DNA of 64,000 nt from Labrenzia sp. OB1 (GTDB taxonomy: Bacteria > Pseudomonadota > Alphaproteobacteria > Rhizobiales > Stappiaceae): the NCBI RefSeq assembly GCF_001624695.1, contig NZ_JSEP01000007.1, positions 186,001 through 250,000 on the forward strand. The letters are read 5' to 3'. Both the position numbers and the translations under genes were made by a program. Every line of letters starts with the position of its first letter. Positions within the stretch are counted from its first letter, which is position 1. Below, piece by piece: positions 8,354 to 49,860 of the stretch. Below the pieces are notes generated by a model that was not told the DNA's origin, searched no databases, and saw only the letters and a program-made list of their open reading frames with translations.

Positions 8354-8396
8354 AATGAGGGCGTGCATCCGGTTCGCAATGCAAAAAAGCCTCGAC

Positions 8397-30343: not shown

Positions 30344-30362
30344 AAATGCGTTGAGGACGCCG

Positions 30363-31205: not shown

Positions 31206-31207
31206 TC

Positions 31208-33949: not shown

Positions 33950-33953
33950 CAGT

Positions 33954-33994
33954 CGAAAACCGGCAGGAACCCAGCGTGGCTCAGCCGGTTTTCG
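33954..33994 (+). terminator. intrinsic terminator-like hairpin after the molybdo-hydroxylase
   Basis: The perfect 11-bp arms CGAAAACCGGC (33954-33964) and GCCGGTTTTCG (33984-33994) are followed by ATCTTT. It separates the hydroxylase genes from hyuA, which has its own operator. Confidence 0.65.
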
Positions 33995-34007
33995 ATCTTT
34001 AGACTCA

Positions 34008-34023
34008 TTAGTATACAAACATT
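34008..34023 (+). promoter_or_regulatory. regulon operator, site 4 (TTAGTATACAAACATT)
   Basis: TTAGTATACAAAC lies 25-40 bp upstream of hyuA, directly after the terminator hairpin. It shares the 12-bp core TTAGTATACAAA with site 3. Confidence 0.65.
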
Positions 34024-34047
34024 AGAAACCAGCGAGACCTAATCTCC

Positions 34048-36156
34048 ATGAATGGTTCCAACGCCCGCCCATCGTCGCATACAGACACTTCAGCCTTGGA
34101 CAGCCTCGTTGCCGGTGTGGATGTCGGGGGCACCTTTACAGACCTGGTGCTGTTTGATGCCGGTGCCCGCAAGGTTCGCCTCGCCAAGACGCCGACAACC
34201 CTGGACAATCAGGCGTTCGGAGTTCTGAATGCCCTGCATGCAGCCGAGACGAACCTGGCGGCGGTGGATTTGATCGTTCACGGCACGACGACCACGACAA
34301 ATGCGGTTCTGGAACGCAATCTTTGCAAAACCGGGCTCGTCACCACCCGGGGCTTCCGTGACATCCTGGAACTTGGCCGGCGGACACGGCCTCAGCCTTA
34401 CGGGATGAAGGGTGAGTTCCGGCCGATCATTCCGCGCAATCTGCGGCTTGAAGTGCCCGAGCGACTCAATGCCTTTGGCGAGGAACTCGTGCCGCTGGAC
34501 GAGACGGCCTTGCGTGACGCGCTCAAGGCGCTGATCGATGCCGGCTGTGAATCTCTCGTGATCCATTTTCTGCACTCCTATGCCAACCCGGCCCATGAGG
34601 TGCGGGCAGGCGAGATCGCCGCCGAGATTTGGCCAAATGAGAACATCACCCTTGGGCACGCGCTCCTGTCCGAAAGCCGCGAGTTCGAGCGCGGCGTGAC
34701 TGCCGCCATCAACGCATCCGTTCAACCGCTGTTGCGCCGTTATGTGGAACGCCTGGCGGATCACCTCGCGCGTGAGGGCTATCGTCACGACGTTCTGGTG
34801 ATGAACGGCAATGGAGGCATGGTGTCGGCGCGCCGGGTCGCCCGGGAGGCGGCCAAGACGGTGATGTCCGGTCCCGCGTCCGGTGTCATGGCAGCCGCCT
34901 ACACCGGGCGGCGGGCGAAAATTCCGAACCTGCTGACCTATGACATGGGTGGGACCTCGACCGATGTCGCCCTGATCCGCGGCGCCGAGCCGGCAGTCTC
35001 CAACGAGATAGAGATCGAATATGCCATGCCGATCCATGTGCCTATGGTCGATGTGCGCACCGTCGGCGCCGGCGGCGGGTCCATTGCGCGGGTCACCGAT
35101 GCCGGTCTCCTGCAGGTCGGCCCGGAAAGTGCCGGCTCGAGCCCGGGACCGGTCTGCTATGGCCGTGGCGGCACCCAGCCGACCATCTCCGATGCCAATC
35201 TCCTGCTGGGGCGGATGAACCCGGACAAGCTGAATTCCGTCGCCAACAAGATTTCCCTTGAAGATATCGAGGCGATTTTCTCCGAAAAACTGGGCTTGCC
35301 GCTCGGCCTTTCAGCGAATGAAGCGGCCGCGGCCGTGTTGCGGATCGCCAATGCGCGGATGTCTGATGCGGTTCGCATGGTGTCCATAAGTCTCGGCGAG
35401 GATCCGCGTGACTTCGCCCTGTTTGCCTTTGGCGGGGCGGGTCCGCTGCATGCAACGGCGATTGCGAGAGAGTTGGGCGTCCCCAGAGTGCTCGTGCCGT
35501 CCCGCCCCGGCATCACAAATGCCCTGGGCTGCGTGGTCGCCGATCTGCGCCACGATTTCGTCAATACGGTCAATCGGCCGCTCGATGCCGTCGACATGGA
35601 TGCGGTGCACGCGCTTTTCGATCAGCAATCCGCGGAAGGGCGCGGTTTGATCGACAAGGAAAGCGTGCCGATTGAGGAATTGAAGGAGATCCGTTCGGTC
35701 GACATGCAGTTCATCGGCCAGACACATGTTCTCCGGGTTCCGCTCGAGACGCCCAGACCAAGCCGCGAGGACCTTCAGGACCTGTTCGAGAAAGCCTATT
35801 TCAGCCGGTTCCATGTGGAGCTGCCGGAGATCCGCGCGAGCCTTGTAAATGTCAACACATCGGTCATCGGGCGCCGCCAGGAGATCGACCTGTCCATGCT
35901 GATCGATCCGGCAGGCCGGCGGGAAACCCCGGACCAGGCCGTGACGGACCATCGCAAGGTCTGGTTCGACGGCTGGACCGATACGCCCATTTACTGGCGG
36001 GATTTTCTTCCGCTCGACGCGGTGATCGAAGGTCCGGCGATTGTCGAACAGATGGACACCACGATTGTCATCGAACCCGGAGATGTCGCGGCGCAGGACC
36101 ACGATGGCAACATCATCATCACGCTTGCATCTGAAAACGGCGGAGAAAACGCATGA
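34048..36156 (+). CDS. hyuA: hydantoinase/oxoprolinase subunit A (HyuA-like)
   Basis: 702 aa. The N-terminal GVDVGGTFTDLVL (23-35) is the actin-like phosphate-binding motif. Further landmarks are VHGTTTTTNAVLERN, LTYDMGGTSTDVALI and GPLHATAIARELGVP. HyuA-type subunits use ATP to activate cyclic amide bonds in 5-oxoproline, N-methylhydantoin and related lactams, or carboxylate acetone and acetophenone. ATG 34048 is the first Met after the operator. It overlaps hyuB by 4 bp. Given the upstream ring-hydroxylating and ring-reducing enzymes, ATP-driven opening of a lactam is the likely task. Confidence 0.92.
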   Translation: MNGSNARPSSHTDTSALDSLVAGVDVGGTFTDLVLFDAGARKVRLAKTPTTLDNQAFGVLNALHAAETNLAAVDLIVHGTTTTTNAVLERNLCKTGLVTTRGFRDILELGRRTRPQPYGMKGEFRPIIPRNLRLEVPERLNAFGEELVPLDETALRDALKALIDAGCESLVIHFLHSYANPAHEVRAGEIAAEIWPNENITLGHALLSESREFERGVTAAINASVQPLLRRYVERLADHLAREGYRHDVLVMNGNGGMVSARRVAREAAKTVMSGPASGVMAAAYTGRRAKIPNLLTYDMGGTSTDVALIRGAEPAVSNEIEIEYAMPIHVPMVDVRTVGAGGGSIARVTDAGLLQVGPESAGSSPGPVCYGRGGTQPTISDANLLLGRMNPDKLNSVANKISLEDIEAIFSEKLGLPLGLSANEAAAAVLRIANARMSDAVRMVSISLGEDPRDFALFAFGGAGPLHATAIARELGVPRVLVPSRPGITNALGCVVADLRHDFVNTVNRPLDAVDMDAVHALFDQQSAEGRGLIDKESVPIEELKEIRSVDMQFIGQTHVLRVPLETPRPSREDLQDLFEKAYFSRFHVELPEIRASLVNVNTSVIGRRQEIDLSMLIDPAGRRETPDQAVTDHRKVWFDGWTDTPIYWRDFLPLDAVIEGPAIVEQMDTTIVIEPGDVAAQDHDGNIIITLASENGGENA

Positions 36157-37844
36157 GTATCGATCCGATCACCCTCAGCGTTATCCAATCCGGCCTGCAG
36201 CAGGTTTGCGATGAAATGGATCTCAGCTTTTCACGCGCCGCCTTTTCGCCGGTCATCGCGGAAGCCAATGATCGCTCCGACGGAATTTACTCTGCGGAAG
36301 ACGGCTCCTTGATTGCCCAGGGCGCCGGCGGTTTGCCGGTCTTCGTCGGCACCATGCAGTATTCCACCAGAACCCTGATCGACATGATCCGATCGGGAAC
36401 GGTTGCTGCGCCGAAACCGGGCGACATCTATATCGTCAACGATCCATATCTCGGCGGCACGCATTTGATGGATGTGCGCTTTGCCATGCCGTTTTACCGC
36501 GATGACAAGATCGTCTGCTGGCTGTCCAACACCGGGCACTGGCCCGACACCGGCGGCGCGGTTCCAGGTGGATTTTCGGCCTCCGCCACGTCTGTCGAGC
36601 AGGAAGGCTTGCGCCTGCCACCCGTGCGGCTGTTCAAGCAAGGCGAGCTCGATACGGAGATCTATTCGATCATCTGTTCCAATATTCGCGTCTCCGAACA
36701 AAGGATCGGCGATGTGAAGGCCCAGGCGGCAGCACTTCTCGTCGGCGCCGAACGCCTCACCCGGATTCTGGATCGCTACGGTGACGATGTGGTCTTTGAG
36801 GCGATCGGGGAATTGCGCCGCAGGGCCAGCGAGCAAATGCGGGCGAATATCGCGCTGATCCCCAATGGCGTTTATCGATCGGTCGCCTATGTCGACAGCG
36901 ATGGCGTCGTCAATGAACCGCTGGAAATTCGCCTTGCGGTGACTTCCAGGGACGGCATCCTGGAATTCGACTTCACCGGATCTTCAGAGCCGTGCATCGG
37001 ACCGATGAATTCGGTTCTGGCGACAACCCTGTCTTCGGTCTATCTGGCGATGCGCCATATTTTTCCGGACGTTCCGATCAGCGCGGGCGCCTTCGAGCCG
37101 CTGCATGTGAAGACGCCCGTGGGCACGTTCCTGGATGCCCATTATCCGCGTCCCGTCTCCGGTTGTGCCGCGGAAGTCAGCCAACGCATTGCCGAGGCCG
37201 TTTTTGCGACCCTGGTGGAGCCATTGCCGGATCTGGTGACGGCAGCACCGGCGGGGAGTTCCGGAAATTTCGCGCTTGGGGGATATGATCCCGAGCGGGG
37301 CCGGAACTTCGTCATGTATCAGATTTCCGGCGGCGGTTACGGCGGCAACAGCGATCATGACGGTCTGGCGAACGGTTGCTCGACCATCGGTATTTCCAAG
37401 GCGCCACCGGTTGAGATCATGGAGCAACAGTTCCCCGTGCTCTACCATCGATATGCCCTGCGCGAAGGCTCTGGCGGCGCCGGAAAACATCGCGGCGGCT
37501 TCGGTCTCGATTATGAAATCGAGTTGCTGCGCGGTCACGCCACGGCGAGCTTCGTGATGGATCACGGCCGGTTCGGTCCCCAGGGCGCTCTTGGCGGCTC
37601 GGACGGGCAGCCGAATTCGGTGAGAATCCTGAAAGATGGCAAGACGATCATCCCTGAACATCTGTCGAAGGCGCAGGACATACCGCTGAAACCCGGTGAC
37701 CGGGTGCGCGTCGGCACGCCTGGCGGTGGCGGCTACGGGGACCCGAAAGAGCGGGATCCCGAGCTGATCGCCGAAGACCTGCGTTTGGGGCGCTATGACA
37801 AAGAACAAACCGTTGAGATGTTCGGGGAAGGTAAAGCCGGCTGA
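36153..37844 (+). CDS. hyuB: hydantoinase/oxoprolinase subunit B (HyuB-like)
   Basis: 563 aa, starting in an ATGA overlap with hyuA. Typical features: DITLSVIQSGLQQVCDEM-like start (DPITLSVIQSGLQQVCDEMD), GDIYIVNDPYLGGTHLMDV, a central GSSGNFALGGYDP, and the C-terminal glycine loop GTPGGGGYGDP. With HyuA it forms the alpha/beta complex that hydrolyses or carboxylates an activated cyclic substrate. A hairpin with a T-rich tail follows the gap. Confidence 0.93.
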   Translation: MSIDPITLSVIQSGLQQVCDEMDLSFSRAAFSPVIAEANDRSDGIYSAEDGSLIAQGAGGLPVFVGTMQYSTRTLIDMIRSGTVAAPKPGDIYIVNDPYLGGTHLMDVRFAMPFYRDDKIVCWLSNTGHWPDTGGAVPGGFSASATSVEQEGLRLPPVRLFKQGELDTEIYSIICSNIRVSEQRIGDVKAQAAALLVGAERLTRILDRYGDDVVFEAIGELRRRASEQMRANIALIPNGVYRSVAYVDSDGVVNEPLEIRLAVTSRDGILEFDFTGSSEPCIGPMNSVLATTLSSVYLAMRHIFPDVPISAGAFEPLHVKTPVGTFLDAHYPRPVSGCAAEVSQRIAEAVFATLVEPLPDLVTAAPAGSSGNFALGGYDPERGRNFVMYQISGGGYGGNSDHDGLANGCSTIGISKAPPVEIMEQQFPVLYHRYALREGSGGAGKHRGGFGLDYEIELLRGHATASFVMDHGRFGPQGALGGSDGQPNSVRILKDGKTIIPEHLSKAQDIPLKPGDRVRVGTPGGGGYGDPKERDPELIAEDLRLGRYDKEQTVEMFGEGKAG

Positions 37845-39332: not shown

Positions 39333-40094
39333 TCACAGGATGACGGTGTCGCCATCGCGTTTGGCAGTGCGAAGCCCGCCGGGAACCTGGAGCGTCGGCA
39401 TCAGCTCGATCATGCCGATGTTGACGTATTGCGGGGCGTCGATGGCATAATTGACGGCGTCAGCGATGTCTGACGGCTGCGGCATTTCGAAACCTTCGAA
39501 GTATTTCTTCTTGGCCAGCGCCGGATCGATCTTCTCGACCTTGGCGAAGATGTCGGTTTCAACGCGGCCCGGAGAGATCTCGGTGACGCGAACCCGGCGT
39601 CCAAAGGCGTCCGTACGCAACTGGCGGGACACCGTGTGCATGGCTGCCTTGGTCGCGTGATAGACCGTATGACCGCTGAACTCATAATGACCGGCGATAG
39701 AGGTAATGTTGATGATATGGCCCTTGTCGCGCTCCATCATGCCGGGCAGCAGGAGGCGGGACAGGTGCAACGCGGCACGCAGGTTGACGTCGATTTGCTC
39801 ATCGACATCGAAGGCATCGGAAGACAACAGGTTGCCGGGGCGTGAAACGCCGGCATTGTTGACGAGAATGTCGATTTCCAGGCCATTGAGCAATTCGGTG
39901 ACGGCGTTTGTGTCCGAGACATCGATTGCATGGGGAATGACGCCGCAGTGCTTTTCCAGATCGGCGAGCTTGTCAGCGTTCCGGGCCAGCGCATGCACGG
40001 TGATGCCATTGGTCCGCAGGCGCTCGGCAATGGCCCAGCCCATTCCGGCGGAGGCCCCGGTGACAATCGCTGTCTTGTAATCTGAGAATGGCAT
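39333..40094 (-). CDS. short-chain dehydrogenase/reductase
   Basis: 253-aa classical SDR of the YdfG/serine-dehydrogenase-like branch. The cofactor motif is TGASAGMG (12-19), NNAG is 79-82, and the catalytic triad is S132, Y145 and K149. Asp at the end of strand 2 is not evident (HALARNADKL), which favours NADP. ATG 40094 lies one base after the pxpA stop, so it belongs to the accB-accC-pxpB-pxpC-carrier-pxpA-SDR operon. It may oxidise a 3-hydroxy acid formed from the opened ring; substrate unknown. Confidence 0.92.
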   Translation of the reverse strand: MPFSDYKTAIVTGASAGMGWAIAERLRTNGITVHALARNADKLADLEKHCGVIPHAIDVSDTNAVTELLNGLEIDILVNNAGVSRPGNLLSSDAFDVDEQIDVNLRAALHLSRLLLPGMMERDKGHIINITSIAGHYEFSGHTVYHATKAAMHTVSRQLRTDAFGRRVRVTEISPGRVETDIFAKVEKIDPALAKKKYFEGFEMPQPSDIADAVNYAIDAPQYVNIGMIELMPTLQVPGGLRTAKRDGDTVIL

Positions 40095-40095
40095 T

Positions 40096-40902
40096 TTAGT
40101 CCTTCCTGAAGAGTGTTTGTCCGGAGGAACCGGACCTTTGGCTGTCTTGCGACAGCGGTGTGATTGTGCCGCCGGCCCGGGCAATCGCGTCGCGTAGCGT
40201 CTGCGCCAGCCTTACCGCTCCGGCGGTGTCTGAGTGGATGAGGATGGATTGCACCGGCATATCGATTGCCGTCCCGTCAATGGCTTCGACCGTTGCCGTC
40301 TCGATCACCTTGAGGACGCGGCTGACAACAGCGTCCGGGTCGTGAATGACGGCTCCCTGCCGGGAGCGTGGAGCAAGCTGTCCATCGGGTGTGTAGCCAC
40401 GATCCGCCAGGAACAGCCTCACGGTGCGGCTGCCCGCAGCCAGCGCCGCACGATCCAGAGCGCTGCCAGGCAGAACGAGAAAGGCGATTTCCGGATCAAA
40501 GGATCGCGTGGCGCGGACGAGCGCTTCCGCCGTCGCCGGATCCGCGCTGGCCAGATTCCCGAGCGCCCCGTGGGGGTTCATGTGGGTGACCTTGTGATCA
40601 GCGCGGGCGGCAAGTCCGGCGAGCGCACCAAGCTGGTAAAGGACGTGAGCCTCCAGCTCGGGCAACGCCATATCGATCCGGCGGCGGCCAAAACCCATTC
40701 TGTCCGGGTAGCTCACATGGGCGCCAAGATCGACGCCGTGGTCTTTTGCCAGCCGGATGGTCCGGTCCATGATGACGGGGTCACCCGCATGATAACCGCA
40801 GGCGACATTCGCGGAGCTTACCAGACCCATGAGCGCAGCATCGTCGGCAATCTGATAAGGACCAAAGCCTTCGCCCATGTCGGAGTTCAGGTCGATGTTC
40901 AT
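40096..40902 (-). CDS. pxpA: 5-oxoprolinase subunit PxpA (LamB/YcsF family)
   Basis: 268 aa with the family start IDLNSDMGEGFG and SANVACGYHAGDP, then VDLGAHVSYPDRMGFGRR. In characterised bacteria PxpABC hydrolyses 5-oxoproline to glutamate with ATP. Here pxpA is separated from pxpBC by a small carrier-like gene and follows accB and accC, an arrangement linking lactam hydrolysis or carboxylation with biotin. Starts in an ATGA overlap with the carrier gene. Confidence 0.93.
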   Translation of the reverse strand: MNIDLNSDMGEGFGPYQIADDAALMGLVSSANVACGYHAGDPVIMDRTIRLAKDHGVDLGAHVSYPDRMGFGRRRIDMALPELEAHVLYQLGALAGLAARADHKVTHMNPHGALGNLASADPATAEALVRATRSFDPEIAFLVLPGSALDRAALAAGSRTVRLFLADRGYTPDGQLAPRSRQGAVIHDPDAVVSRVLKVIETATVEAIDGTAIDMPVQSILIHSDTAGAVRLAQTLRDAIARAGGTITPLSQDSQRSGSSGQTLFRKD

Positions 40903-41300
40903 GGACGCACTTCCAAAGTCATGAGGATGTCGCCATATCCGGTGATCCGGCCGGTACCGGGCAGTTCGCCAACCAGTGTGCCGGCAACAGGCGCGATCAC
41001 GGCGTGCCGTGCGGACCCCTGAGCGACATAGCCGAGTATCTCGCCGTTGATGACAGCCCGATCCATGGCGATGGGCTCAAGCCCGTCCTCCAGGCCCCTT
41101 GGCGAAAAGGTTCCGATTCCGGGACTTCTGACCGGGATCCGGGCGGGTTCCGGAACGCTCGGCGGTGCGGCGTTGACCGGTCCCGTGCTGCCGTCCGGAA
41201 GGACCAGCCGCAAGGTGAGCTCCGGTGCCTCGACGATCATCGACGAGACGGCATTGGCCCGCATGGCCGTGACGAGTTGATCGAGATCTTCCGATGTCAT
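40899..41300 (-). CDS. biotinyl/lipoyl-domain-like protein lacking the biotin-acceptor lysine
   Basis: 133 aa. Its domain layout copies AccB: an N-terminal helix (MTSEDLDQLVTAMRANAVSS), a Pro-rich linker (about 55-75) and a C-terminal hammerhead-like beta domain with AVIAPVAGTLVGEL and YGDILMTLEVRP. The position where AccB has EAMKM contains no Met-Lys pair and there is no lysine anywhere in that domain, so it cannot be biotinylated. ATG 41300 lies 2 bp from the pxpC stop. It may be a structural or scaffolding carrier for the PxpABC-AccBC assembly, or a degenerate paralogue of the accB gene at 44293. Confidence 0.65.
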   Translation of the reverse strand: MTSEDLDQLVTAMRANAVSSMIVEAPELTLRLVLPDGSTGPVNAAPPSVPEPARIPVRSPGIGTFSPRGLEDGLEPIAMDRAVINGEILGYVAQGSARHAVIAPVAGTLVGELPGTGRITGYGDILMTLEVRP

Positions 41301-41302
41301 GA

Positions 41303-42280
41303 CTATCTCCACCCCTGTTGCAGGCCATGCCATGCCTTGCGGTCGTTGGTCAGCTTGTCGAACAGCCCCTGCAGCTCACGCTCTGCGGCGCGCGCGCCGT
41401 CCAGGTCCGTTCTCACGAACCGCAGGCGGTCGCCTGGCACGGTTTGCCCCAACCGCCAGAGGTCGGCACTGATCACGGCGGCAATCTTGGGATAGCCGCC
41501 CATGGTCGCTGAATCAGCCAGCTGGATGATCGGCTGACCGCCGCCCGGAACCTGTACGATGCCGGGTATGATCCCGTGTGAGCGCAGTTCTCCCGCCTGG
41601 TCGCGGCGAAGATCCGGTCCCTGAAGACGGTAGCCCTGGCGGTTGCTTTGCGGCGTTATCCGATAAGTTTCAGACCAGAAGGAAGACCTTGCAGCCTCCG
41701 TGAAGCTCTCGTGCTCCGCCGCAGGCAGGGCTCTGAGTTCAATCGTCTCGCCATGCGGCCGGGTGAGTTCCGGAACGGCAAGGCTGACGCCATTTGCCGG
41801 GAAATCCTCAGAGGTTGCCAGTTCCGGCTTCAAGACATCGCCAGTGCGCAGGATACGACCTTTGAACCCGCCAAACCCTTCACGCAGCTGGGTGCTTCGC
41901 GAACCGAGGATTTCAGGCACATCGATGCCGCCACTCAGGGCAAGATAGACGCGTCCACCGTTCCGGAACGGCCCGAGATGCAATTCCTGACCGGCCCTGG
42001 CCATGCCGGCCCACGTCTTGGGGAGCAGGACATCATCCAGCCTTGCGCCGCAGGCCGCACCCGCCAGGGCGAATGCCTGATCCTGGCCGAACCGGAAGCT
42101 GGCCGGGCTGAGGGGTATTTCCAAGGCTGCTGCGCCCGGCTCATTGCCGAGCATCAGGTTTGCCAGCTTCAATGCCACCGGATCCATGGCCCCGGCACGT
42201 CCGAGGCCCTGGAACCAATGATGGTCCCGACCCAGATCTTGCACCGTCGCGAGCGGAGGTATGCTCAGGATCTCGATCAT
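41303..42280 (-). CDS. pxpC: 5-oxoprolinase subunit PxpC / biotin-dependent carboxyltransferase-like
   Basis: 325 aa of the KipA/PxpC family (carboxyltransferase domain, subdomain 2, as in urea amidolyase). Landmarks are PPLATVQDLGRDHHWFQGLGRAGAMDP-type start, NLMLGNEPGAAALE, and the C-terminal GGGQPIIQLADSATMGGYPKIA. ATG 42280 overlaps the pxpB stop by ATGA; the much longer frame upstream is pxpB read in the wrong frame. Forms a complex with PxpB. Confidence 0.92.
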   Translation of the reverse strand: MIEILSIPPLATVQDLGRDHHWFQGLGRAGAMDPVALKLANLMLGNEPGAAALEIPLSPASFRFGQDQAFALAGAACGARLDDVLLPKTWAGMARAGQELHLGPFRNGGRVYLALSGGIDVPEILGSRSTQLREGFGGFKGRILRTGDVLKPELATSEDFPANGVSLAVPELTRPHGETIELRALPAAEHESFTEAARSSFWSETYRITPQSNRQGYRLQGPDLRRDQAGELRSHGIIPGIVQVPGGGQPIIQLADSATMGGYPKIAAVISADLWRLGQTVPGDRLRFVRTDLDGARAAERELQGLFDKLTNDRKAWHGLQQGWR

Positions 42281-42936
42281 CGGTTCATCGCCAGCGGTGT
42301 GAATTTGATCCTGTCGCCAGGGCACAAGAGCGAGGCCGGACTGCGCAGGGGATCGAAGAACGTCACGTCGGCGGTGCCGATGGTGTTCCAGCCGCTGGGC
42401 CCCGCGGACGCGGAAACGCCCGTTTGCATGCCGGCCAGGGAGAGGGAGCCACCCGGAAGATTGGTCAACGGCACCTTGCGGCGCGGTGTTTCCAGCCGGG
42501 GATCCAGACCACCAAGATAGCAATAGCCCGCATGGCTGCCGACAGCATAAACCGTGTATTCCGGCTCCGAGTGGAGATGCACCACCTCTTCCACACTGAG
42601 GCCGGTCATTGTGGCCACCTCATCCAGATGCGGCCCGCCTTCCCCACCGTAGTGGATGCCAACTTCCAGCAGTTTGCCGTCGACGACCTTGCGAATACCG
42701 CTTTCCCAGGCTTCGCAGAGTTGCGCGGCCAAGGCATCCAGATCCTGTGGAATGCTATCAAGCAGAAGCGTGAGGTTGGTCATCCCGGGAACGGCTTCCC
42801 GGACATCGGACCATTGTGCCGCCCTGTCGGCCAAGGCCCAGATCCGCTGCTGATCCTCAAGGTCGAACGGGCAATCGGGCGTGAACAGGACAGCATGGCT
42901 GCCAAGCATGGAAACGCGCGCGGCTTCAGGCTGCAT
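42277..42936 (-). CDS. pxpB: 5-oxoprolinase subunit PxpB (KipI-like)
   Basis: 219 aa, KipI/PxpB family (carboxyltransferase domain, subdomain 1). Motifs are DVREAVPGMTNLTLLLD, VGIHYGGEGGPHLDEVA (usual form YGGExGPDLxxVA), and YAVGSHAGYCYLGGLDPRLxTPRR. The GSHAGY/LGG part is the substrate loop shared with urea amidolyase. It overlaps accC by 11 bp. Confidence 0.92.
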   Translation of the reverse strand: MQPEAARVSMLGSHAVLFTPDCPFDLEDQQRIWALADRAAQWSDVREAVPGMTNLTLLLDSIPQDLDALAAQLCEAWESGIRKVVDGKLLEVGIHYGGEGGPHLDEVATMTGLSVEEVVHLHSEPEYTVYAVGSHAGYCYLGGLDPRLETPRRKVPLTNLPGGSLSLAGMQTGVSASAGPSGWNTIGTADVTFFDPLRSPASLLCPGDRIKFTPLAMNR

Positions 42937-44296
42937 TGTCGCCCTCCCGCGTCTTGAGCCAGCTTTCCATGTGATGGATGCTCACGCCGCCGGCGCAAAA
43001 CTCCGGTTCAGCCATTATTTGACGGTGCAGCGGGATATTGGTCAGCACGCCCTCGACCTGCATTTCGGCAAGTGCGCTACGCGCGCGCGCCAGCGCCTCG
43101 TCCCTGGTCTGGCCAAAGGTAATGACCTTGGCGATCATCGAATCGTAGAACGGCGAAACCGTCATGCCGGCCACAGCGTGGGTGTCGACCCGCACACCGG
43201 GACCACCGGGAAGACGCAGGCCGGTGATTGTCCCTGCGCTCGATACAAAGCTGGACGGATCTTCGGCATTGATCCGGCATTCAATCGCATGACCGGTCGT
43301 GCGGACCTGGTCCTGGGTCACCGCGAGGGCCGCGCCTCGGGCGACATCAATCTGCATTGCAACAATGTCGAGGCCCGTCACCATCTCGGTCACGGGATGC
43401 TCGACTTGAACGCGGGTGTTCATCTCGATGAAGAAGAACTGGCCGTCCTCATAGAGAAATTCGAATGTTCCGGCACCCACATAGCCGATCTCCCGGCAGG
43501 ATGCGGCACAACGGGCACCGATTTCCGCGATCAGCCCACGATCGATCCCGGGAGCCGGCGCCTCTTCGACAACCTTCTGGTGCCGCCGTTGCATGGAGCA
43601 ATCCCGGTCGCCGAGCCAGATGGCGTTGCCATGGCTATCAGCCAGGATCTGGATCTCGACATGCCGCGGCCTGGCAAGATACTTTTCCATGTAGATATCG
43701 GACTGACCGAAGAACCTGCCCGCTTCCTGACGGGTGAGCATGGCAGCTTCGATCAGTTCCGATGGGTTCGTGACGACGCGCATGCCGCGTCCGCCGCCGC
43801 CGCCGGCAGCCTTCATGATCACCGGGTAACCGATATCCTCAGCGATGGCCGCTATGACCGCCGGATCTTCCGGGAGGGTTGCGTCCGGTCCCGGCACACA
43901 GGGTACGCCGTGGGCGACCATGGCACGTTTCGCCGAAACCTTGTCGCCCATCATTCTCATGACGTCGGCGCTCGGTCCGATAAAAGTGAGCCCCGCCGCG
44001 GCGACCGCCTCTGCAAATTCGGCGCTTTCGGACAGGAAGCCATAACCCGGATGGATCATGTCGGCGCCGAGCGTCCTGGCGGCGGCCAGAAGGGCCGGGA
44101 TGTTCAGATAGCTCTTCGCGGCAGCGGCAGGGCCGATGCAGATGGTCTCGTCAGCTGCCTTCAGATATGGCGCATCGCGGTCTGCTTCGGAATGTGCGCA
44201 GACGACACGCAGCCCCAGGTACCGGCAGGCGCGGATGATCCTGAGGGCAATTTCGCCGCGGTTCGCGACGAGGACGGTTTGAGGCGCGGCCGTCAT
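42926..44296 (-). CDS. accC: biotin carboxylase (AccC family)
   Basis: 456-aa ATP-grasp enzyme that carboxylates biotin on the carrier protein. Features: VLVANRGEIALRIIRAC at the N-terminus, MIHPGYGFLSESAEFAE, the ATP-binding glycine loop AAGGGGGRGMR, and the catalytic EMNTRVQVEHPVTE. It overlaps accB by ATGA. A housekeeping accBC pair is normally elsewhere with a fatty-acid context; here it is wired to PxpBC. The pair probably serves a dedicated carboxylase or lactamase reaction, as in the split urea-amidolyase-like systems. Confidence 0.93.
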   Translation of the reverse strand: MTAAPQTVLVANRGEIALRIIRACRYLGLRVVCAHSEADRDAPYLKAADETICIGPAAAAKSYLNIPALLAAARTLGADMIHPGYGFLSESAEFAEAVAAAGLTFIGPSADVMRMMGDKVSAKRAMVAHGVPCVPGPDATLPEDPAVIAAIAEDIGYPVIMKAAGGGGGRGMRVVTNPSELIEAAMLTRQEAGRFFGQSDIYMEKYLARPRHVEIQILADSHGNAIWLGDRDCSMQRRHQKVVEEAPAPGIDRGLIAEIGARCAASCREIGYVGAGTFEFLYEDGQFFFIEMNTRVQVEHPVTEMVTGLDIVAMQIDVARGAALAVTQDQVRTTGHAIECRINAEDPSSFVSSAGTITGLRLPGGPGVRVDTHAVAGMTVSPFYDSMIAKVITFGQTRDEALARARSALAEMQVEGVLTNIPLHRQIMAEPEFCAGGVSIHHMESWLKTREGDNAA

Positions 44297-44721
44297 GCCG
44301 ACATCCTGAAAAGCGGTGTGCCCGGCTGGACCTGATCGCCATTGCCGATCAGGATCTCCTCCACCGTGCCGGCCGCCTTCGCGCCGACTGAAGTCATCAC
44401 CTTCATGGCTTCAATCACATAGAGCGTCTGGCCAGGGGACACCGGATCGCTAACCTGTACGAAGGGGGCTGACCCGGGATCGGGCGTGAGATGGCACAGG
44501 CCCGACATTTCCGCCATGATCGTCAACGCGTCCTGCTCAGGCCCGGAAGCCGCCAGGGAGGACGAGGGCCGAGTTGCCGGGATTGCACCGACTGCCGACG
44601 GGACATTCTCATGCCGGACAATCTGGATCCTGACGCCGTTTTCGGTCAGGTCCAGCTCCTTCACACTCTGTGCTGACATCCATTCCATGATCGAGGTCAG
44701 ATGTGCGGCATCGACGGTCAT
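44293..44721 (-). CDS. accB: biotin carboxyl carrier protein (AccB family)
   Basis: 142 aa. The N-terminal helix-strand segment (SVKELDLTENGVRIQIVRHE) and an Ala/Pro/Ser linker precede the biotinyl domain, with acceptor lysine K107 in VIEAMKVM. I chose ATG 44721 (MTVDAAH); the longer frame extends into the promoter region. First gene of a seven-gene operon ending at 39333. It diverges from the RraA-type aldolase gene across a 245-bp gap with a perfect inverted repeat. Confidence 0.9.
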   Translation of the reverse strand: MTVDAAHLTSIMEWMSAQSVKELDLTENGVRIQIVRHENVPSAVGAIPATRPSSSLAASGPEQDALTIMAEMSGLCHLTPDPGSAPFVQVSDPVSPGQTLYVIEAMKVMTSVGAKAAGTVEEILIGNGDQVQPGTPLFRMSA

Positions 44722-44848: not shown

Positions 44849-44966
44849 GAACTGAAATCACGTCAGAGCGAACGGCTCTTATCGCGGTTTCCGGTGGTTC
44901 TTTATGATCGACGATCACGGCAGTGGGACACTTGCCGGAGATCAGGACATCATTGGGAGTATGCCG

Positions 44967-45641
44967 ATGCCACATATCATCACCAAAATCGAACGTGCAA
45001 AACCGGAAGACTGCGCGGCGCTGGGAAAATTCGGCAGCGCGACCATTCATGAAGCACAGGGGCGTCTGGGGGCGCTCAACTCCCGGATCAAGCCGATCGA
45101 CCGGTCCATGTCGGTCTGCGGTCCTGCTTTCACCGTCGTCAGCGCACCGCGCGACAACATCATGCTTCAACTGGCCATCCATTACGCTCAGCCCGGCGAT
45201 GTGATCGTCGTTTCGGCCGGCGAATACGAAGAAGCCGGAAGTTTCGGTGATGTGCTCGGCAATGCCTGCGTTGCCAAGGGGATTGCGGGTGTGGTCACCG
45301 ATACTGGTGTTCGTGATACGGCGGAACTCATCAAGCTGGGTCTGCCGGTTTTCTCGTTGAGCGTCAGCATCAAGGGGACCGTCAAGGAAACCCTCGGGCA
45401 GATCAACGGCAACATCATTATTGGCGGCGTAGAGGTTCGTCCGGGAGATGTGATCCGGGGCGATGCGGACGGTCTTGTCACCGTGTTGCGCGAGGATGCT
45501 GCCGAAGTGGCAAACAAATCGCAGGCCCGGGAAGATGCGGAGGCCGGCTTTATCGCGGCTTACAAGGCAGGGCGCACAATCATCGACGTCTGCAATCTGG
45601 AAAAGGTTCTTGCCGAAAAGGGTCTGACAACGGATCTTTGA
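44967..45641 (+). CDS. RraA family aldolase (4-carboxy-4-hydroxy-2-oxoadipate/HMG aldolase-like)
   Basis: 224 aa. RraA/HMG-aldolase fold with the GSFGDVLGNACVAKG loop (91-105) and the conserved TDTGVRD (111-117, R116 and D117 for substrate and metal). Members cleave 4-hydroxy-4-carboxy- or methyl-2-oxo acids to pyruvate or oxaloacetate and also decarboxylate oxaloacetate. GGGAG lies 8 bp before ATG 44967; another ATG is two codons upstream. A final-cleavage role in aromatic or heterocycle breakdown would fit the context. Confidence 0.88.
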   Translation: MPHIITKIERAKPEDCAALGKFGSATIHEAQGRLGALNSRIKPIDRSMSVCGPAFTVVSAPRDNIMLQLAIHYAQPGDVIVVSAGEYEEAGSFGDVLGNACVAKGIAGVVTDTGVRDTAELIKLGLPVFSLSVSIKGTVKETLGQINGNIIIGGVEVRPGDVIRGDADGLVTVLREDAAEVANKSQAREDAEAGFIAAYKAGRTIIDVCNLEKVLAEKGLTTDL

Positions 45642-45711: not shown

Positions 45712-47016
45712 TTATCCCAGAAGCAAGTCGGGCAGGAAGGTGACGATCCCGGGAAACAGTGCCAGTAGGATGACAAATCCGATCATGATCAACAGGAAGG
45801 GAAACGTAACACGTGCGATGAATGCCGTACTGCGTCCCGTGATGTTCTGGATGATCGCGAAGTTGAAGGCAACCGGCGGCGTGATCTGAGCCATCTCGAC
45901 AACGAGCACGATGAAGATGCCGAACCATACCTTGTCGAAACCGGCCGCTTCGACCAGCGGCAGCACGACCGGCAGGGTTGTTGCGATCATCGAGAAGCCT
46001 TCAAGGGCCGTTCCCAGTATCAGGTAAAGCACGATCAGGGCCAGGATCAGGACAATCGGCGACAGGTTCCACTCGGTGACCGTGCTGGCCACGGCTGCCG
46101 GAATTCCGAGAATCGAGGTTATGTTTCCGAGAACGGAAGCCCCCAGGATGATGACGCCCATCACGGAACAGGTCTGAACGGCCCCGAGCAGGATATCGCG
46201 CAGGCCACGCAAGGTCAGGGCCCCTTGCGACAGGGAGACGGCGAAAGCGCCGAGAACGCCAAGCGCGGCGGCCTCCGACGGCGTTGCCAGGCCGCCATAC
46301 ATGGAGCCCAGAACGCAGACAATCAGAAACAGCGCAGGCGCGAGGTCCTTGAGGGCGGCAATCCGATCCCGCAACGGCATGTGGCGCATCGCCCGTTCGC
46401 TCTCGGGCACCAGTTCCGGTTTCAGCGTTGTCCGGAGCATGATCCAGGCCCCGAAGACGGCGGACAGAAGCAGGCCGGGAATGAAACCGGCTGTAAACAG
46501 CCTGAGAACGGATTCATTCGCCAGCACCCCATACATGATCATGACCGTGGACGGCGGGATGAGAAAGCCTAGCGTGCCTGCGCCGGCCAGACTGCCAATG
46601 GCAATCTCCGGCGAATAGCCGCGCGCCAGCAGTTCTTTCAGCGTCATGCGTCCGACCACCTGCGTCGTTGCCGCAGACGACCCGGAAATCGCCGCGAAGA
46701 TCGAGCAGCCGACCACATTCACATGAAGCAGACGCCCCGGAAGCAGTCCGGCCCACGGCGCGAGACCGGTGAACAGCGCTTCCGACAGTTTCGTCCTGAA
46801 CAGGAATTCGCCCATCAGGATAAACAGGGGCAGGGCTACCAGATCCGGGGTTGTGAGGATGTTGAAGATATATTGCGGAAACAGCTTGTCGATCGGGATT
46901 CCGGTGAAGAACCACCCCAGGCCTATGGCGGTTGTCAGAAGGGCGATGCCTATCCATGCGCCAAGGGCCAGCGTACCAAACAAGAATGCAAACAGACTGG
47001 CGACAATGGCACCCAT
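45712..47016 (-). CDS. dctM: TRAP transporter large permease (DctM)
   Basis: 434-aa inner-membrane protein with about 12 helices. DctM landmarks are GIPIDKLFPQYIF, the LPLFILMGEFLFRT segment, GCSIFAAISGSSAATTQVVGRM, and LIPPSTVMIMYGVL. It carries Na+-coupled uptake together with DctQ and DctP. Last gene of dctP-dctQ-dctM. Substrate would be an organic acid delivered by DctP, possibly a product or side substrate of the neighbouring catabolic locus (inference). Confidence 0.95.
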   Translation of the reverse strand: MGAIVASLFAFLFGTLALGAWIGIALLTTAIGLGWFFTGIPIDKLFPQYIFNILTTPDLVALPLFILMGEFLFRTKLSEALFTGLAPWAGLLPGRLLHVNVVGCSIFAAISGSSAATTQVVGRMTLKELLARGYSPEIAIGSLAGAGTLGFLIPPSTVMIMYGVLANESVLRLFTAGFIPGLLLSAVFGAWIMLRTTLKPELVPESERAMRHMPLRDRIAALKDLAPALFLIVCVLGSMYGGLATPSEAAALGVLGAFAVSLSQGALTLRGLRDILLGAVQTCSVMGVIILGASVLGNITSILGIPAAVASTVTEWNLSPIVLILALIVLYLILGTALEGFSMIATTLPVVLPLVEAAGFDKVWFGIFIVLVVEMAQITPPVAFNFAIIQNITGRSTAFIARVTFPFLLIMIGFVILLALFPGIVTFLPDLLLG

Positions 47017-47067
47017 TCTGGTTCCTTCCTATAGAGGGAAAAGATGAATTCGAAGCGGCAAACGCGG

Positions 47068-47655
47068 CTACTCGATCGCGCTTGCGGCGCCCAGACTGCT
47101 CCGATTGACGGGGTGTCCGGCAAGGCATGTGACCAAACGGGCAACCATCTGAAAAGCCAGGACAGCCGCACCGATAGCCAGCACCAGCTGTGGAATCCAG
47201 AGAGGCGTGTAGCTGTCCTGAGACACTTCCCCATAGCTGTAGGTGCGGTAGCAAAACCGCGCGAGCCAAAGCGCGAGCGGCACCGTGACCGCAACGCCCA
47301 GCGCCGCCGACAAGCCTTCGAAAAAGCGTGTCATGCGACCACCCAGCGATGACATCAGCACTTCGACCCTCAGCTGCAACCCGGCACGAAGCGTCATGCC
47401 GGAGCCAAGCAGGAAAGAGGATCCCATCAGGTAAGCACTGTATTCCCAGCCTATCCCCGTGCTGGTTGGCACCGAAGGCATAAAGCCTGAAAAGAAGGCC
47501 AGGAAGATATCGAGCAGAACCAACAGTGTCAGCAACAAGATACAGATGCCTGCCGCCCACGCCGCCCCGAGCGACACCATGTCTGCGGCCCCTTGCAGGG
47601 CCGCAGCAGGTCCGCGCGGTTCCGAAAATTCGGTCGAGCGAGACGGTTCATTCAT
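47068..47655 (-). CDS. dctQ: TRAP transporter small permease (DctQ)
   Basis: 195 aa with four hydrophobic helices. The second carries GIGWEYSAYLMGSSFLLGSGMTLR, typical of DctQ (W-E, then G-x-x-x-x-RxGxHxR-like loop). I chose ATG 47655 (MNEPSRS), 1 bp after the dctP stop; upstream in-frame codons overlap dctP. Pairs with DctM. Confidence 0.9.
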   Translation of the reverse strand: MNEPSRSTEFSEPRGPAAALQGAADMVSLGAAWAAGICILLLTLLVLLDIFLAFFSGFMPSVPTSTGIGWEYSAYLMGSSFLLGSGMTLRAGLQLRVEVLMSSLGGRMTRFFEGLSAALGVAVTVPLALWLARFCYRTYSYGEVSQDSYTPLWIPQLVLAIGAAVLAFQMVARLVTCLAGHPVNRSSLGAASAIE

Positions 47656-47656
47656 G

Positions 47657-48658
47657 TCAGTTTTTCCCGAGAGACGCGCGATAGGCCTCAACGATCGGGA
47701 GGGCTGCAGGAACGCGCTCGAAGAAGACATCCTGAACGGTTTTGGCGCGCTCAGCGATCTCTGCCTTCAGGTCGTCGGAGAGCGGAACGACAACCATTCC
47801 GTTTTCAGTCATGGTCTGGATGCTCGCCAGATCGCCCTCACGTGAAATGTCCCAGAAGCCCGGCTCCAGATCGGCAGCGACTTTCTCGATCGCGGCCCGG
47901 TCTTCGGCCGAAAGGCTGTTCCACGTGTCGAGATTGATCGTCACGGCGTTGGAACCCCAGGTGTGGTTGGTCGGGTAGATGTATTCCAGGAACTCCCAGA
48001 ACTTGCCGTCAACGCCGGACGTTGCAGATGTGGCAACGCCTTTGACGCGCCCGGACGCCAGGGCGGGCAACAGTTCACCCCACGGAACGACCACACCGGC
48101 CATGCCGATCGACGTGATGATGTCGACTGTATTCTTGTCCGCACCCCGAACGATAATGCCACGGAAGCCTTCGATGTCATCCACCTTTTCGTTGAGATAG
48201 ACATACTGCGCGGGCGAGGGAACCATATAAAGGATTTTCTGGTTGTTCTGCTCAGCGAGTTTTTCGAATTCCGGACGCAGGAAAGCATGGTAGTCGCGCA
48301 GCTCGTCCATGGAACTGACCAGGAACGGCACCCCTTCCGCGCCAAACAGCGGATTGATCCCAACCTGCTGACTGATGTTGATGTCAGCCATGTCGACCAG
48401 GCCGTCCCGGACTGCGCCGAGCTGGTCCGGGCCTTTGAAACCGAGCGAGCCGGATGCGCCGACGGTGATGACAACTTCTCCGTCGGTGGCTTCTTTGACA
48501 GCTTCTGCGAAGGTAATGGCGTTTTTCACCATGAAGTTGCTGTCGGGCAGAACGTCTGAAAGACGCAGCTGTGTCTCGGCAGCGGCAGGTTGGGCAATGC
48601 CTCCGGCCAGAATCGCCAAGGAAGCGGCGCCAAGGATCCAATTCGTGAATTTTTTCAT
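47657..48658 (-). CDS. dctP: TRAP transporter solute-binding protein (DctP)
   Basis: 333 aa with a Sec signal peptide (MKKFTNWILGAASLAILAGG, cut near PAAA-ET) and a DctP fold: LRLSDVLPDSNFMVKNAITFAEAV, then DMADINISQQVG and GFRGIIVRGADKNTVDII. The conserved ligand Arg would be in RGIIVRGAD. GAGGGGA precedes the ATG. It diverges from a LysR gene, the usual arrangement for a regulator controlling a transporter. Confidence 0.94.
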   Translation of the reverse strand: MKKFTNWILGAASLAILAGGIAQPAAAETQLRLSDVLPDSNFMVKNAITFAEAVKEATDGEVVITVGASGSLGFKGPDQLGAVRDGLVDMADINISQQVGINPLFGAEGVPFLVSSMDELRDYHAFLRPEFEKLAEQNNQKILYMVPSPAQYVYLNEKVDDIEGFRGIIVRGADKNTVDIITSIGMAGVVVPWGELLPALASGRVKGVATSATSGVDGKFWEFLEYIYPTNHTWGSNAVTINLDTWNSLSAEDRAAIEKVAADLEPGFWDISREGDLASIQTMTENGMVVVPLSDDLKAEIAERAKTVQDVFFERVPAALPIVEAYRASLGKN

Positions 48659-48818: not shown

Positions 48819-48942
48819 TTTGCTTATGTATCTTCCCTTCCGGCGCTGATTGTTCGTAAGTTCAGCAAGAATAGTGTTTTGAATGCAGAAACTTCGCGGA
48901 GCATCGCTGCATCGTTAAAACCGGTTGGAAAGGACCGATTTC

Positions 48943-49860
48943 GTGGACATTAGACGGCTTCATGCCTTTGTGAAAATCGTTGATATCGGCAGCATCACCC
49001 GCGCATCGTCCATCTTGCATATCGCGCAACCGGCGTTGAGCCAGCAAATTGCAGCGCTGGAAGCCCAATTCGGCAAACCCTTGTTGTTGCGCTCCAAACG
49101 CGGCGTGACCCCGACAGAGGCGGGCAAGCTCCTGTATCGCCACAGCCAGCAGATCCTGAAGCAAATGGATCAGGCGCAGATCGATATCGGTAACAGCTCG
49201 GCAGACATTTCAGGGTTCGTGTCTGTTGCTCTTGCGCCCCTGAGCCTCGGGTCGCTCCTTGCGTCGCGCGTATTGCAGACCGTCCGGGCCCAGCATCCCG
49301 GCATTATCTTGCACATCAATGAAAACGTCGGGGCCGTGATCAGCGAGATGGTCATGATGGGCAAGGTCGATATCGCCCTGATCTATGATCCCGGTGAAAC
49401 ACCGGGCCTGGCTTTTGAACCCGTGCTGAGCGAAGAACTCTATTATATCGGAAAAAGAATGGAGGGAGAGGACAGCACCGAAATCGCCTTTTCCGATGCT
49501 GTCGCACAGCCACTGATCCTGCCAAGCCGTATGCATACGGTTCGCAAAGTCATCGACACAGCGCTCACGCGCGTGGGACTTTCGGCGTCCGTTGTTGCGG
49601 AAACCGAGTCCATCTCGTTGATGGTTGATGCCATTCAGAACGGAATCGCGAACTCGATTTTGCCGTTTTCCGCAGCAACCGCCATCAGGTCACAGGTTCA
49701 AGCCGCACACCTTTACAGGATAACCCAGCCAAACCTGAAAACACATATGTCGATGTGTATTTCCGGCCAGTTGCCAATGTCCGAGCCCGCTGACGCAGTG
49801 AACCGCATTCTGTCTGAGTTGGCTCATGAATTTGCACGGGAAATCGAGGGGCAGCACTGA
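48943..49860 (+). CDS. LysR family transcriptional regulator
   Basis: 305 aa. The N-terminal winged HTH (RLHAFVKIVDIGSITRASSILHIAQPALSQQIAALEAQFG) and the C-terminal periplasmic-binding-like domain are complete; the pattern is CatM/NAC-like (LLLRSKRGVTPTEAG). The start is GTG 48943, 8 bp after GGAAAGGA; no in-frame ATG lies near. It is divergent from the TRAP operon, which is its most likely target. Confidence 0.92.
   Translation: MDIRRLHAFVKIVDIGSITRASSILHIAQPALSQQIAALEAQFGKPLLLRSKRGVTPTEAGKLLYRHSQQILKQMDQAQIDIGNSSADISGFVSVALAPLSLGSLLASRVLQTVRAQHPGIILHINENVGAVISEMVMMGKVDIALIYDPGETPGLAFEPVLSEELYYIGKRMEGEDSTEIAFSDAVAQPLILPSRMHTVRKVIDTALTRVGLSASVVAETESISLMVDAIQNGIANSILPFSAATAIRSQVQAAHLYRITQPNLKTHMSMCISGQLPMSEPADAVNRILSELAHEFAREIEGQH

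Follow-up and report, generated by a model that had tools for sequence, protein, structure and literature searches.

The operon and its neighbours

The locus described here raises the question of why an operon for what looks like a biotin-dependent enzyme should encode, next to its biotin carrier, a second carrier-shaped protein devoid of lysine. It lies in a 64,000-nucleotide stretch of DNA from Labrenzia sp. OB1 (the whole stretch analysed, hereafter the window), in which seven tightly packed genes, all on the minus strand at 39333-44721, encode AccB, AccC, PxpB, PxpC, the small protein, PxpA and an SDR oxidoreductase. Neighbouring operon genes either share 4-11 bases or are separated by 1-2, with the start codons of all seven being our choice, and the gene positions given in an earlier, sequence-only reading of this DNA hold.

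44293..44721, minus strand: AccB, biotin carboxyl carrier protein, 142 aa; biotinyl Lys107 in VIEAMKV, codon 44401-44403
42926..44296, minus strand: AccC, biotin carboxylase, 456 aa
42277..42936, minus strand: PxpB, KipI-type, carboxyltransferase (CT) subdomains C and D, 219 aa
41303..42280, minus strand: PxpC, KipA-type, CT subdomains A and B, 325 aa
40899..41300, minus strand: lysine-free BCCP paralogue (dead carrier, the small protein), 133 aa; Ser96, codon 41013-41015, opposite AccB Lys107
40096..40902, minus strand: PxpA (LamB/YcsF), 268 aa
39333..40094, minus strand: SDR oxidoreductase, 253 aa
38041..39294, minus strand: class I/II aminotransferase
44904..45641, plus strand: RraA-like (aldolase/RraA family) protein
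45712..48658, minus strand: TRAP transporter genes (DctM-like 45712-47016, DctQ 47068-47730, DctP 47657-48658)
48925..49860, plus strand: LysR-type regulator

The assignments of AccC (TIGR00514, 639.3 bits, cut-off 626.5), PxpB (TIGR00370, 173.6 bits, cut-off 145.55), PxpC (PF02626 and TIGR00724, both above cut-off) and PxpA (NF003814, 331.6 bits, cut-off 226) come from Pfam and NCBIfam, joined for PxpC by a structure model. AccB scores 55.5 bits with Biotin_lipoyl (cut-off 22.1) and 67.9 bits, under the cut-off of 115.2, with TIGR00531; the best NCBIfam match of the SDR is a YdfG-type model, at 155.5 bits and under its cut-off of 411. Neighbours were counted over the 68 loci, out of 80, that bear the small gene and exceed 12.8 kb: the SDR occurs in 61, the RraA-like protein in 49, the aminotransferase in 48 and a DctM-like protein in 11. 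HyuB is found in 0 of these 68, and the HyuAB genes beside the window's operon therefore probably lie outside the system.

A carrier fold without its lysine

The small protein contains no lysine among its 133 residues, and pairwise alignment sets its Ser96 opposite the biotinyl Lys107 of AccB, in an acceptor turn that is polar in the window's protein (AQGSARH) and mostly hydrophobic in its relatives. With no lysine present, biotin or lipoyl attachment to a lysine of this protein is ruled out. Searches with the single sequence gave no Pfam match at E ≤ 1, no NCBIfam match at E ≤ 0.1, chance matches only in the PDB and, by BLASTP, an E of just 1.8 with the window's own AccB, and its carrier nature thus rests on profiles and a model. 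A profile of 61 sequences matches E. coli BCCP (4hr7_B) with an E of 6.5e-22 over 2-131, and in a fold search with the AlphaFold model (pLDDT 91.7) the best solved matches were 1bdo, the biotinyl domain from E. coli (Z 12.7), and 4hr7 (Z 12.5), the search covering residues 50-133 and the N-terminal part of the likeness resting on the profile match. Judged by profile and predicted fold, then, the small protein is homologous to BCCP over its full length, sharing with the AccB/BCCP of acetyl-CoA carboxylase the N-terminal region, the linker and the biotinyl-type barrel, but unlike E. coli BCCP in lacking the biotinyl lysine and in having its acceptor turn, the site of the AMK motif, replaced. An AMK string does occur in two relatives (L083 and L085), where it lies in the N-terminal hairpin and not in the turn. 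The absent lysine, the serine in its place, the BCCP profile match and the confident model together confirm the extra carrier-shaped protein without acceptor lysine that the sequence-only reading had described.

Conservation and gene linkage

Public loci were selected for likeness to the window's PxpC, giving a set of 80 in which many are closely related (15 are from Bradyrhizobium); plasmid records were 8 of 20 listed and 5 from another listing of 12 records, and L148 and L149 were included because of their small gene. The earlier reading had counted a lack of the small protein in homologous operons among the outcomes that would speak against it. That outcome did not occur: the gene is present in all 80 genomes sampled, in 75 of them within the PxpC stretch and in the other 5 elsewhere in the genome, which favours a structural use. 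The biotin lysine is retained in 85 of 85 AccB rows versus 1 of 92 small-protein rows (these including at least three duplicated genes, L084=L014, L089=L048 and L140=L063, and identical rows for L068 and L069); the single exception reads QGK without the motif. A tree of the 126 rows left after thinning on length and word similarity places the small proteins on one side of a branch with support of 100/98, and leaving out 14 columns round the lysine gives the same split at 100/100. The pooled dN/dS over 17 independent pairs is 0.29 for the small protein and 0.27 for AccB, a ratio by which the former is evolving under constraint. Being conserved across related loci, the small protein is more than chance; conservation, dN/dS and tree rule out a pseudogene as well. 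Biotin attachment would have been lost in the small-protein lineage, most simply once, with structural retention thereafter.

A single-sequence search of 151 related genomes yielded 5 matches, the window included, among which L010 is a true relative and L011 and L013 are ordinary AccB; most genomes of the same genus gave no match to the small protein as a single sequence, and the system is therefore accessory. Order-wide searches (with a two-row profile) and phylum searches matched most genomes, mostly through presumed ordinary BCCPs, and served homology and the choice of stretches, not counts.

Gene order across the 75 stretches is PxpC-small-PxpA in 62, AccC-small-PxpB in 10 and otherwise in 3, the small gene keeping to the system although its place in the operon varies. 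AccB or AccC accompanies PxpBC in 70 of the 80 stretches, 69 of these 70 having the small gene. This linkage bears on a reading that we hold to be very improbable, namely that PxpABC alone acts as an ATP-dependent lactamase, with AccBC and the small protein linked for another reason. PxpABC, reportedly the subject of a 2017 paper by Niehaus, is represented in E. coli by YbgJKL, and the window shares homologues of all three subunits; it adds AccB, AccC and the dead carrier, with SDR, aminotransferase and RraA-like neighbours. Among solved structures YbgJ and YbgK are the best matches of the window's PxpB and PxpC (the PxpC model being closest to YbgK, 5dud). The available portions of two papers describe PxpABC alone as an ATP-dependent oxoprolinase whose PxpB/PxpC are thought to phosphorylate the lactam, or were shown to hydrolyse ATP (PMC13274462, PMC8453981), and the former, as far as its accessible text goes, reports that plain PxpABC is needed for, and carries out, 5-oxoproline use in other bacteria. 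Against this stand not only the co-occurrence counts and the overlapping operon genes but also PxpC itself: whereas the window's PxpA and PxpB score above the PxpABC models NF003814 and TIGR00370, PxpC reaches 297.9 bits with the oxoprolinase equivalog NF045499, under its cut-off of 500.

Loci that lack one or the other component delimit the association. Within the fetched stretches, none of 4 plain PxpABC loci had the small gene, and neither did any of 8 loci belonging to a second AccBC-PxpBCA class, which the window's own genome also contains and whose AccB has no N-terminal region; the dead carrier is therefore not needed for every AccBC-PxpBC pairing. This second class, if functional, works without a dead carrier. 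Conversely, Rouxiella, Serratia and Granulosicoccus have PxpB-PxpC-small-PxpA genes with no AccBC within the stretch, so that the dead carrier needs no AccBC of its own; genome searches showed in each one stand-alone AccB-AccC pair, presumed housekeeping, and also fused or urea-carboxylase-size proteins. A genome search of Pantoea L147 gave no stand-alone AccC at E ≤ 1e-60. The Rouxiella, Serratia and Granulosicoccus loci, like L052, L054 and L056, where PxpA-AccB-small lies with a convergent PxpBC and no AccC within 16-kb stretches, would suit a small protein that is an adaptor of PxpBC-PxpA rather than of AccBC, with PxpBC borrowing any biotin carboxylase, dedicated or housekeeping. We think this unlikely, as the small gene adjoins AccC in L153-L155, where PxpBC lies elsewhere, and is missing from the four plain PxpABC stretches.

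A proposed structural role

Plants offer a close parallel. Their analogue BADC, reported in the accessible part of PMC11926652 to be a non-biotinylated glue of BC-BCCP, is like the small protein a BCCP homologue without the biotin (AMK) motif, and both occur alongside a genuine BCCP and a biotin carboxylase that stands alone. The small protein differs in being bacterial and operon-encoded, and in that its partners are PxpA and a carboxyltransferase of KipI/KipA type in place of AccA/AccD. AccA and AccD are absent among the seven operon proteins by Pfam and NCBIfam, with PxpB and PxpC in their place. That related clusters in many bacteria keep the dead copy suggests, by comparison with BADC, a structural building block of the enzyme. 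An inhibitory model has also been proposed for BADC in work cited by the same partly available source, and the small protein, which retains the BCCP N-terminal region, might likewise be a regulator, a lysine-free decoy competing with AccB for AccC or the carboxyltransferase and lowering activity. This we regard as improbable: its gene shares one tightly packed operon with the others, which makes separate variation of its dose unlikely, and a gene present in 80 of 80 sampled genomes looks more like a required part than a modulator.

A further parallel is urea carboxylase/urea amidolyase, which likewise combines BC, BCCP and a KipA/KipI-type CT and is known to carboxylate a nitrogen before hydrolysis. 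The window's system differs in having separate proteins, an extra dead carrier and PxpA instead of allophanate hydrolase, and its PxpC (183.2 bits) and AccC (474.8 bits) fall below the cut-off of 1303.85 for the single-chain urea carboxylase TIGR02712. At the position of Lys1605, the general base of the urea carboxylase CT (PMC5770610), alignment gives Arg in the window's PxpB and Lys in the second class (P0009 of the same genome). In favour of a biotin-dependent assembly, PDB entry 9yx5 combines the mycobacterial AccA3 sequence with chains that bear the names of allophanate hydrolase subunits 1 and 2; the entry is not among the PxpC fold-search matches listed; a study of mycobacterial AccA3 and PII (PMC11001197) has, in its available part, no bearing on the dead-carrier question. 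Literature searches, confined to open-licence papers, brought up no description of PxpBC with a lysine-free carrier.

We thus favour, with reasonable though not high confidence, a BCCP paralogue without biotin attachment that is kept as a structural subunit of a split biotin-dependent amide/lactam enzyme. The small protein would most likely sit beside the true AccB on the biotin carboxylase via its retained N-terminal helix-hairpin, and its altered lysine-free turn and thumb region would provide the contacts by which AccC-AccB stays attached to the PxpB-PxpC carboxyltransferase. Together the subunits would probably form a split, urea-carboxylase-like machine, in which AccC would carboxylate biotin on AccB, PxpBC would transfer the carboxyl group to the nitrogen of an amide or lactam and PxpA would hydrolyse the activated amide. 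Several observations count against this view: the small gene also accompanies PxpBC-PxpA where no AccBC lies nearby, the second AccBC-PxpBCA class does without it, the window's PxpB has Arg at the Lys1605 position, PxpABC is described as an oxoprolinase by itself, the window's turn is polar, the 80 loci were chosen by PxpC likeness and include many close relatives, and the system is accessory. The sequence-only reading, which is partly supported, had offered either a multi-subunit biotin-dependent enzyme for a lactam or amide or a dead carrier domain put to structural use. Such a carrier does exist, is conserved and evolves under selection, and gene linkage is what speaks for the enzyme, which is probably multi-subunit, biotin-dependent and amide/lactam-activating; the two may be true together rather than alternatives. 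A bolder and more tentative proposal is that bacteria, independently of plants, evolved a non-biotinylated BCCP subunit as an obligatory part of a new class of split, biotin-dependent enzymes that carboxylate and hydrolyse lactams or amides (AccB-AccC-dead carrier-PxpB-PxpC-PxpA), with the product passing to the aminotransferase and the RraA-type aldolase; conversion of 4-hydroxylated 5-oxoproline into pyruvate and glyoxylate would fit these neighbours.

Public records name the small protein biotin/lipoyl-containing protein, AccB subunit, biotin carboxyl carrier protein, acetyl-CoA carboxylase or hypothetical protein, and a conserved subunit unable to carry biotin is thus hidden under a carrier's name. 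Its gene sets apart a group of PxpABC-like operons that probably encode something other than a plain 5-oxoprolinase, and provides a bacterial system for testing the question posed by plant BADC: inhibitor or glue.

The operon and its lysine-free carrier

The window falls on contig C68 of the 6.0 Mb genome, and the operon within it comprises seven genes, of which the small gene encodes 133 residues:

44293-44721, minus strand: AccB, in agreement with the family scan
42926-44296, minus strand: AccC, in agreement with the family scan
42277-42936, minus strand: PxpB, in agreement with the family scan
41303-42280, minus strand: PxpC, in agreement with the family scan
40899-41300, minus strand: small protein, 133 aa, no match in family scans
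40096-40902, minus strand: PxpA, in agreement with the family scan
39333-40094, minus strand: SDR, seventh gene of the close-set series

Neighboring genes either share 4-11 bases or are parted by 1-2 bases, which points to a single transcript, and the arrangement bears out the AccBC-PxpBCA operon with an added small protein put forward in the sequence-only reading. Beside the operon, on the plus strand (30351-37844), lie molybdenum hydroxylase genes and, after them, HyuA and HyuB.

A profile of the small-protein family (61 sequences) aligns with Escherichia coli BCCP 4hr7_B (E 6.5e-22, positions 2-131), covering the N-terminal region as well as the biotinyl domain. In the predicted model (pLDDT 91.7), residues 3-15 form a helix and 20-33 a hairpin; a linker then leads to strands between residues 53 and 131. 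The closest solved folds, all matched within residues 50-133, are 1bdo, the biotinyl domain of E. coli (Z 12.7 over 79 residues, rmsd 2.8), 4hr7 (Z 12.5 over 76 residues, rmsd 1.9) and Arabidopsis BCCP1 9a87 (Z 11.7). Profile and model together identify the small protein as a BCCP homologue devoid of a biotin site. Public records (L148, L149, L150, L152, L189, L191) give it five names: biotin/lipoyl-containing protein, hypothetical protein, AccB subunit, biotin carboxyl carrier protein and acetyl-CoA carboxylase.

As had been read from the sequence, the acceptor turn holds no lysine: Ser96 faces AccB Lys107 in the alignment, and the window's small protein contains no lysine at all. Across an alignment of 92 small and 85 AccB rows, lysine occupies the biotin position in every AccB and in one small protein (L075, where it reads QGK and the motif is absent). 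Once the rows are thinned to 69 small and 49 AccB, the turn that reads E-A-M-K-V-F-N in AccB is mostly x-I/V-G-P-L-L-L in the small proteins, with glycine replacing methionine in 59/69 small rows and a hydrophobic residue at +3 in 71% of small versus 2% of AccB rows; the window's turn, A-Q-G-S-A-R-H, retains the glycine but is polar. An HP pair ahead of the second half of the barrel, at the site of the AccB thumb, is found by pattern in 70/92 small rows, the window's protein not among them; HP also occurs within the same half in 8/85 AccB rows. The altered turn may serve as a contact surface.

Conservation, gene position and origin

A PxpC alignment, scanned against the genome collection, yielded 466 confirmed loci, the best 80 of which were taken; by count their titles name 34 genera, 32 of these with the small gene inside the stretch. 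Nearly all are Proteobacteria, next to one possibly contaminated cyanobacterial MAG. The small gene lies inside 75 of the 80 stretches, and in 69 of the 70 that contain AccB or AccC, the exception being L093, whose contig stops shortly past PxpC. All five genomes lacking it in the stretch carry it elsewhere: at the edge of another contig (L093; G825:C45), in separate AccB-AccC-small loci (L155, L153 and L154 for L101, L118 and L136, respectively) or, on a contig of equal length, about 2.3 kb past the end of the fetched stretch (L133). The lysine-free carrier is thus conserved, with the counts speaking for this subfamily rather than for all PxpC, since the loci were picked by likeness to the window PxpC and include many close relatives (15 Bradyrhizobium). 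Among same-genus genomes, a search of limited reach with a single small sequence matched the window's genome and G021 only, and as far as this search reaches the system appears patchy within the genus. Window PxpC shares 58-66% identity with relatives, most of them from Rhodobacterales (L068-L079), but 53% with that of same-genus Roseibium suaedae (L084), which suggests horizontal transfer.

Leaving the SDR aside, the small gene sits between PxpC and PxpA in 62/75 stretches, between AccC and PxpB in 10 and elsewhere in 3; in further genomes it sits between AccC and PxpA (L049, L050) or adjoins AccB with PxpBC convergent (L051, L052, L054, L056). That this company is kept despite changes of position suggests a functional tie to the system. 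Rouxiella, Serratia and Granulosicoccus have PxpB-PxpC-small-PxpA and, besides larger fused proteins, one stand-alone AccB-AccC pair in the genome, so that either the dead carrier recruits this pair or the enzyme there is biotin-independent; a search at E<=1e-60 found no stand-alone AccC in Pantoea L147, perhaps owing to a data gap. In Bradyrhizobium (L092, L096, L099, L103, L104 and others) two PxpB-PxpC pairs face one another, SDR-AccB-AccC-PxpB-PxpC-small lying opposite PxpA-PxpC-PxpB on the other strand. In Pantoea L217, PxpA and small-SDR stand about 3 kb apart, with other sequence in between; in L216, from the enterobacterial MAG of L101, a similar stretch separates PxpC from the small gene.

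In a tree built on few columns, with many forks unresolved, from 69 small rows, 49 AccB rows from operons and 8 from stand-alone AccB (the latter taken as housekeeping), every small row falls on one side of a single branch (support 100/98), a split retained upon removal of 14 columns around the lysine (100/100). A single loss of biotin attachment therefore suffices, provided that the tree is rooted on the side of AccB. Pooled over 17 independent close pairs, dN/dS is 0.29 for small, 0.27 for AccB, 0.09 for AccC, 0.12 for PxpB, 0.14 for PxpC and 0.10 for PxpA (counted only where on the same strand): constraint on the dead carrier is about that on the live carrier and weaker than that on the enzymes.

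Three operon classes

Class I, PxpABC alone (Klebsiella L188, Paracoccus L193, Methylobacterium L194, Salinivibrio L195), has the small gene in none of four stretches. Class II comprises PxpA, an AccB that lacks the N-terminal region (78-97 aa), AccC, a long PxpB and PxpC (L017 from the window's own genome, L165, L183-L187, L192), and none of its eight stretches holds the small gene, a count that covers the stretches themselves (L165 is just 4.3 kb). Class III, that of the window, combines full-length AccB with the dead carrier, the latter present in 7/7 fetched plasmid stretches of this class (L148-L150, L152, L189-L191; L148 and L149 were selected through their small gene). The genomes of the window and of L165 contain both class II and class III. 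At the position of the urea-carboxylase general base Lys1605 (PMC5770610), the own-genome class II PxpB has lysine and window PxpB arginine. L017 (C13:466000-480000) is a second AccBC-PxpBCA operon, with short AccB and long PxpB, and a relative lies on a haloarchaeal plasmid (L186). Bosea plasmid L151 looks like a decayed operon: it has PxpA, a remnant fusing the AccB start to the AccC end (7924-8364), PxpB and PxpC, and of the small gene no more than a trace (13.6 bits).

Putative substrate and mechanism

Within the 68 small-bearing loci above 12.8 kb, SDR is a neighbor in 61, an RraA-like protein in 49, a window-like aminotransferase in 48, TRAP DctM in 11 and HyuB in none. Some annotated plasmid copies have the nitrogen regulator NAC and amino acid ABC or TRAP transporters nearby, and one has PEP carboxylase and D-glycerate dehydrogenase. 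An amino-acid-like lactam serving as nitrogen source would fit as substrate. From the enzyme types of the neighbors, 4-hydroxy-5-oxoproline is our guess; a literature search gave nothing bearing on such a role for this compound.

Biotin on BCCP is loaded by biotin carboxylase. In the operon, AccC and AccB would feed PxpBC, which would carboxylate an amide or lactam nitrogen, after which PxpA would cleave the carboxylated compound. In urea carboxylase, a KipA/KipI-type carboxyltransferase carboxylates urea ahead of hydrolysis (PMC5770610); plain PxpABC opens 5-oxoproline at the expense of ATP, with PxpB/PxpC assumed to phosphorylate it (PMC13274462) or described as ATP-hydrolyzing (PMC8453981). 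By its chain names, AccA3 and allophanate hydrolase subunits 1 and 2, PDB 9yx5 would be a precedent for BC-BCCP joined with PxpBC. BADC is proposed in PMC11926652 as the glue of plant BC-BCCP, a role favored there over an inhibitor model. By analogy with this plant protein, the dead carrier may sit alongside AccB on the biotin carboxylase platform and also bind to PxpBC.
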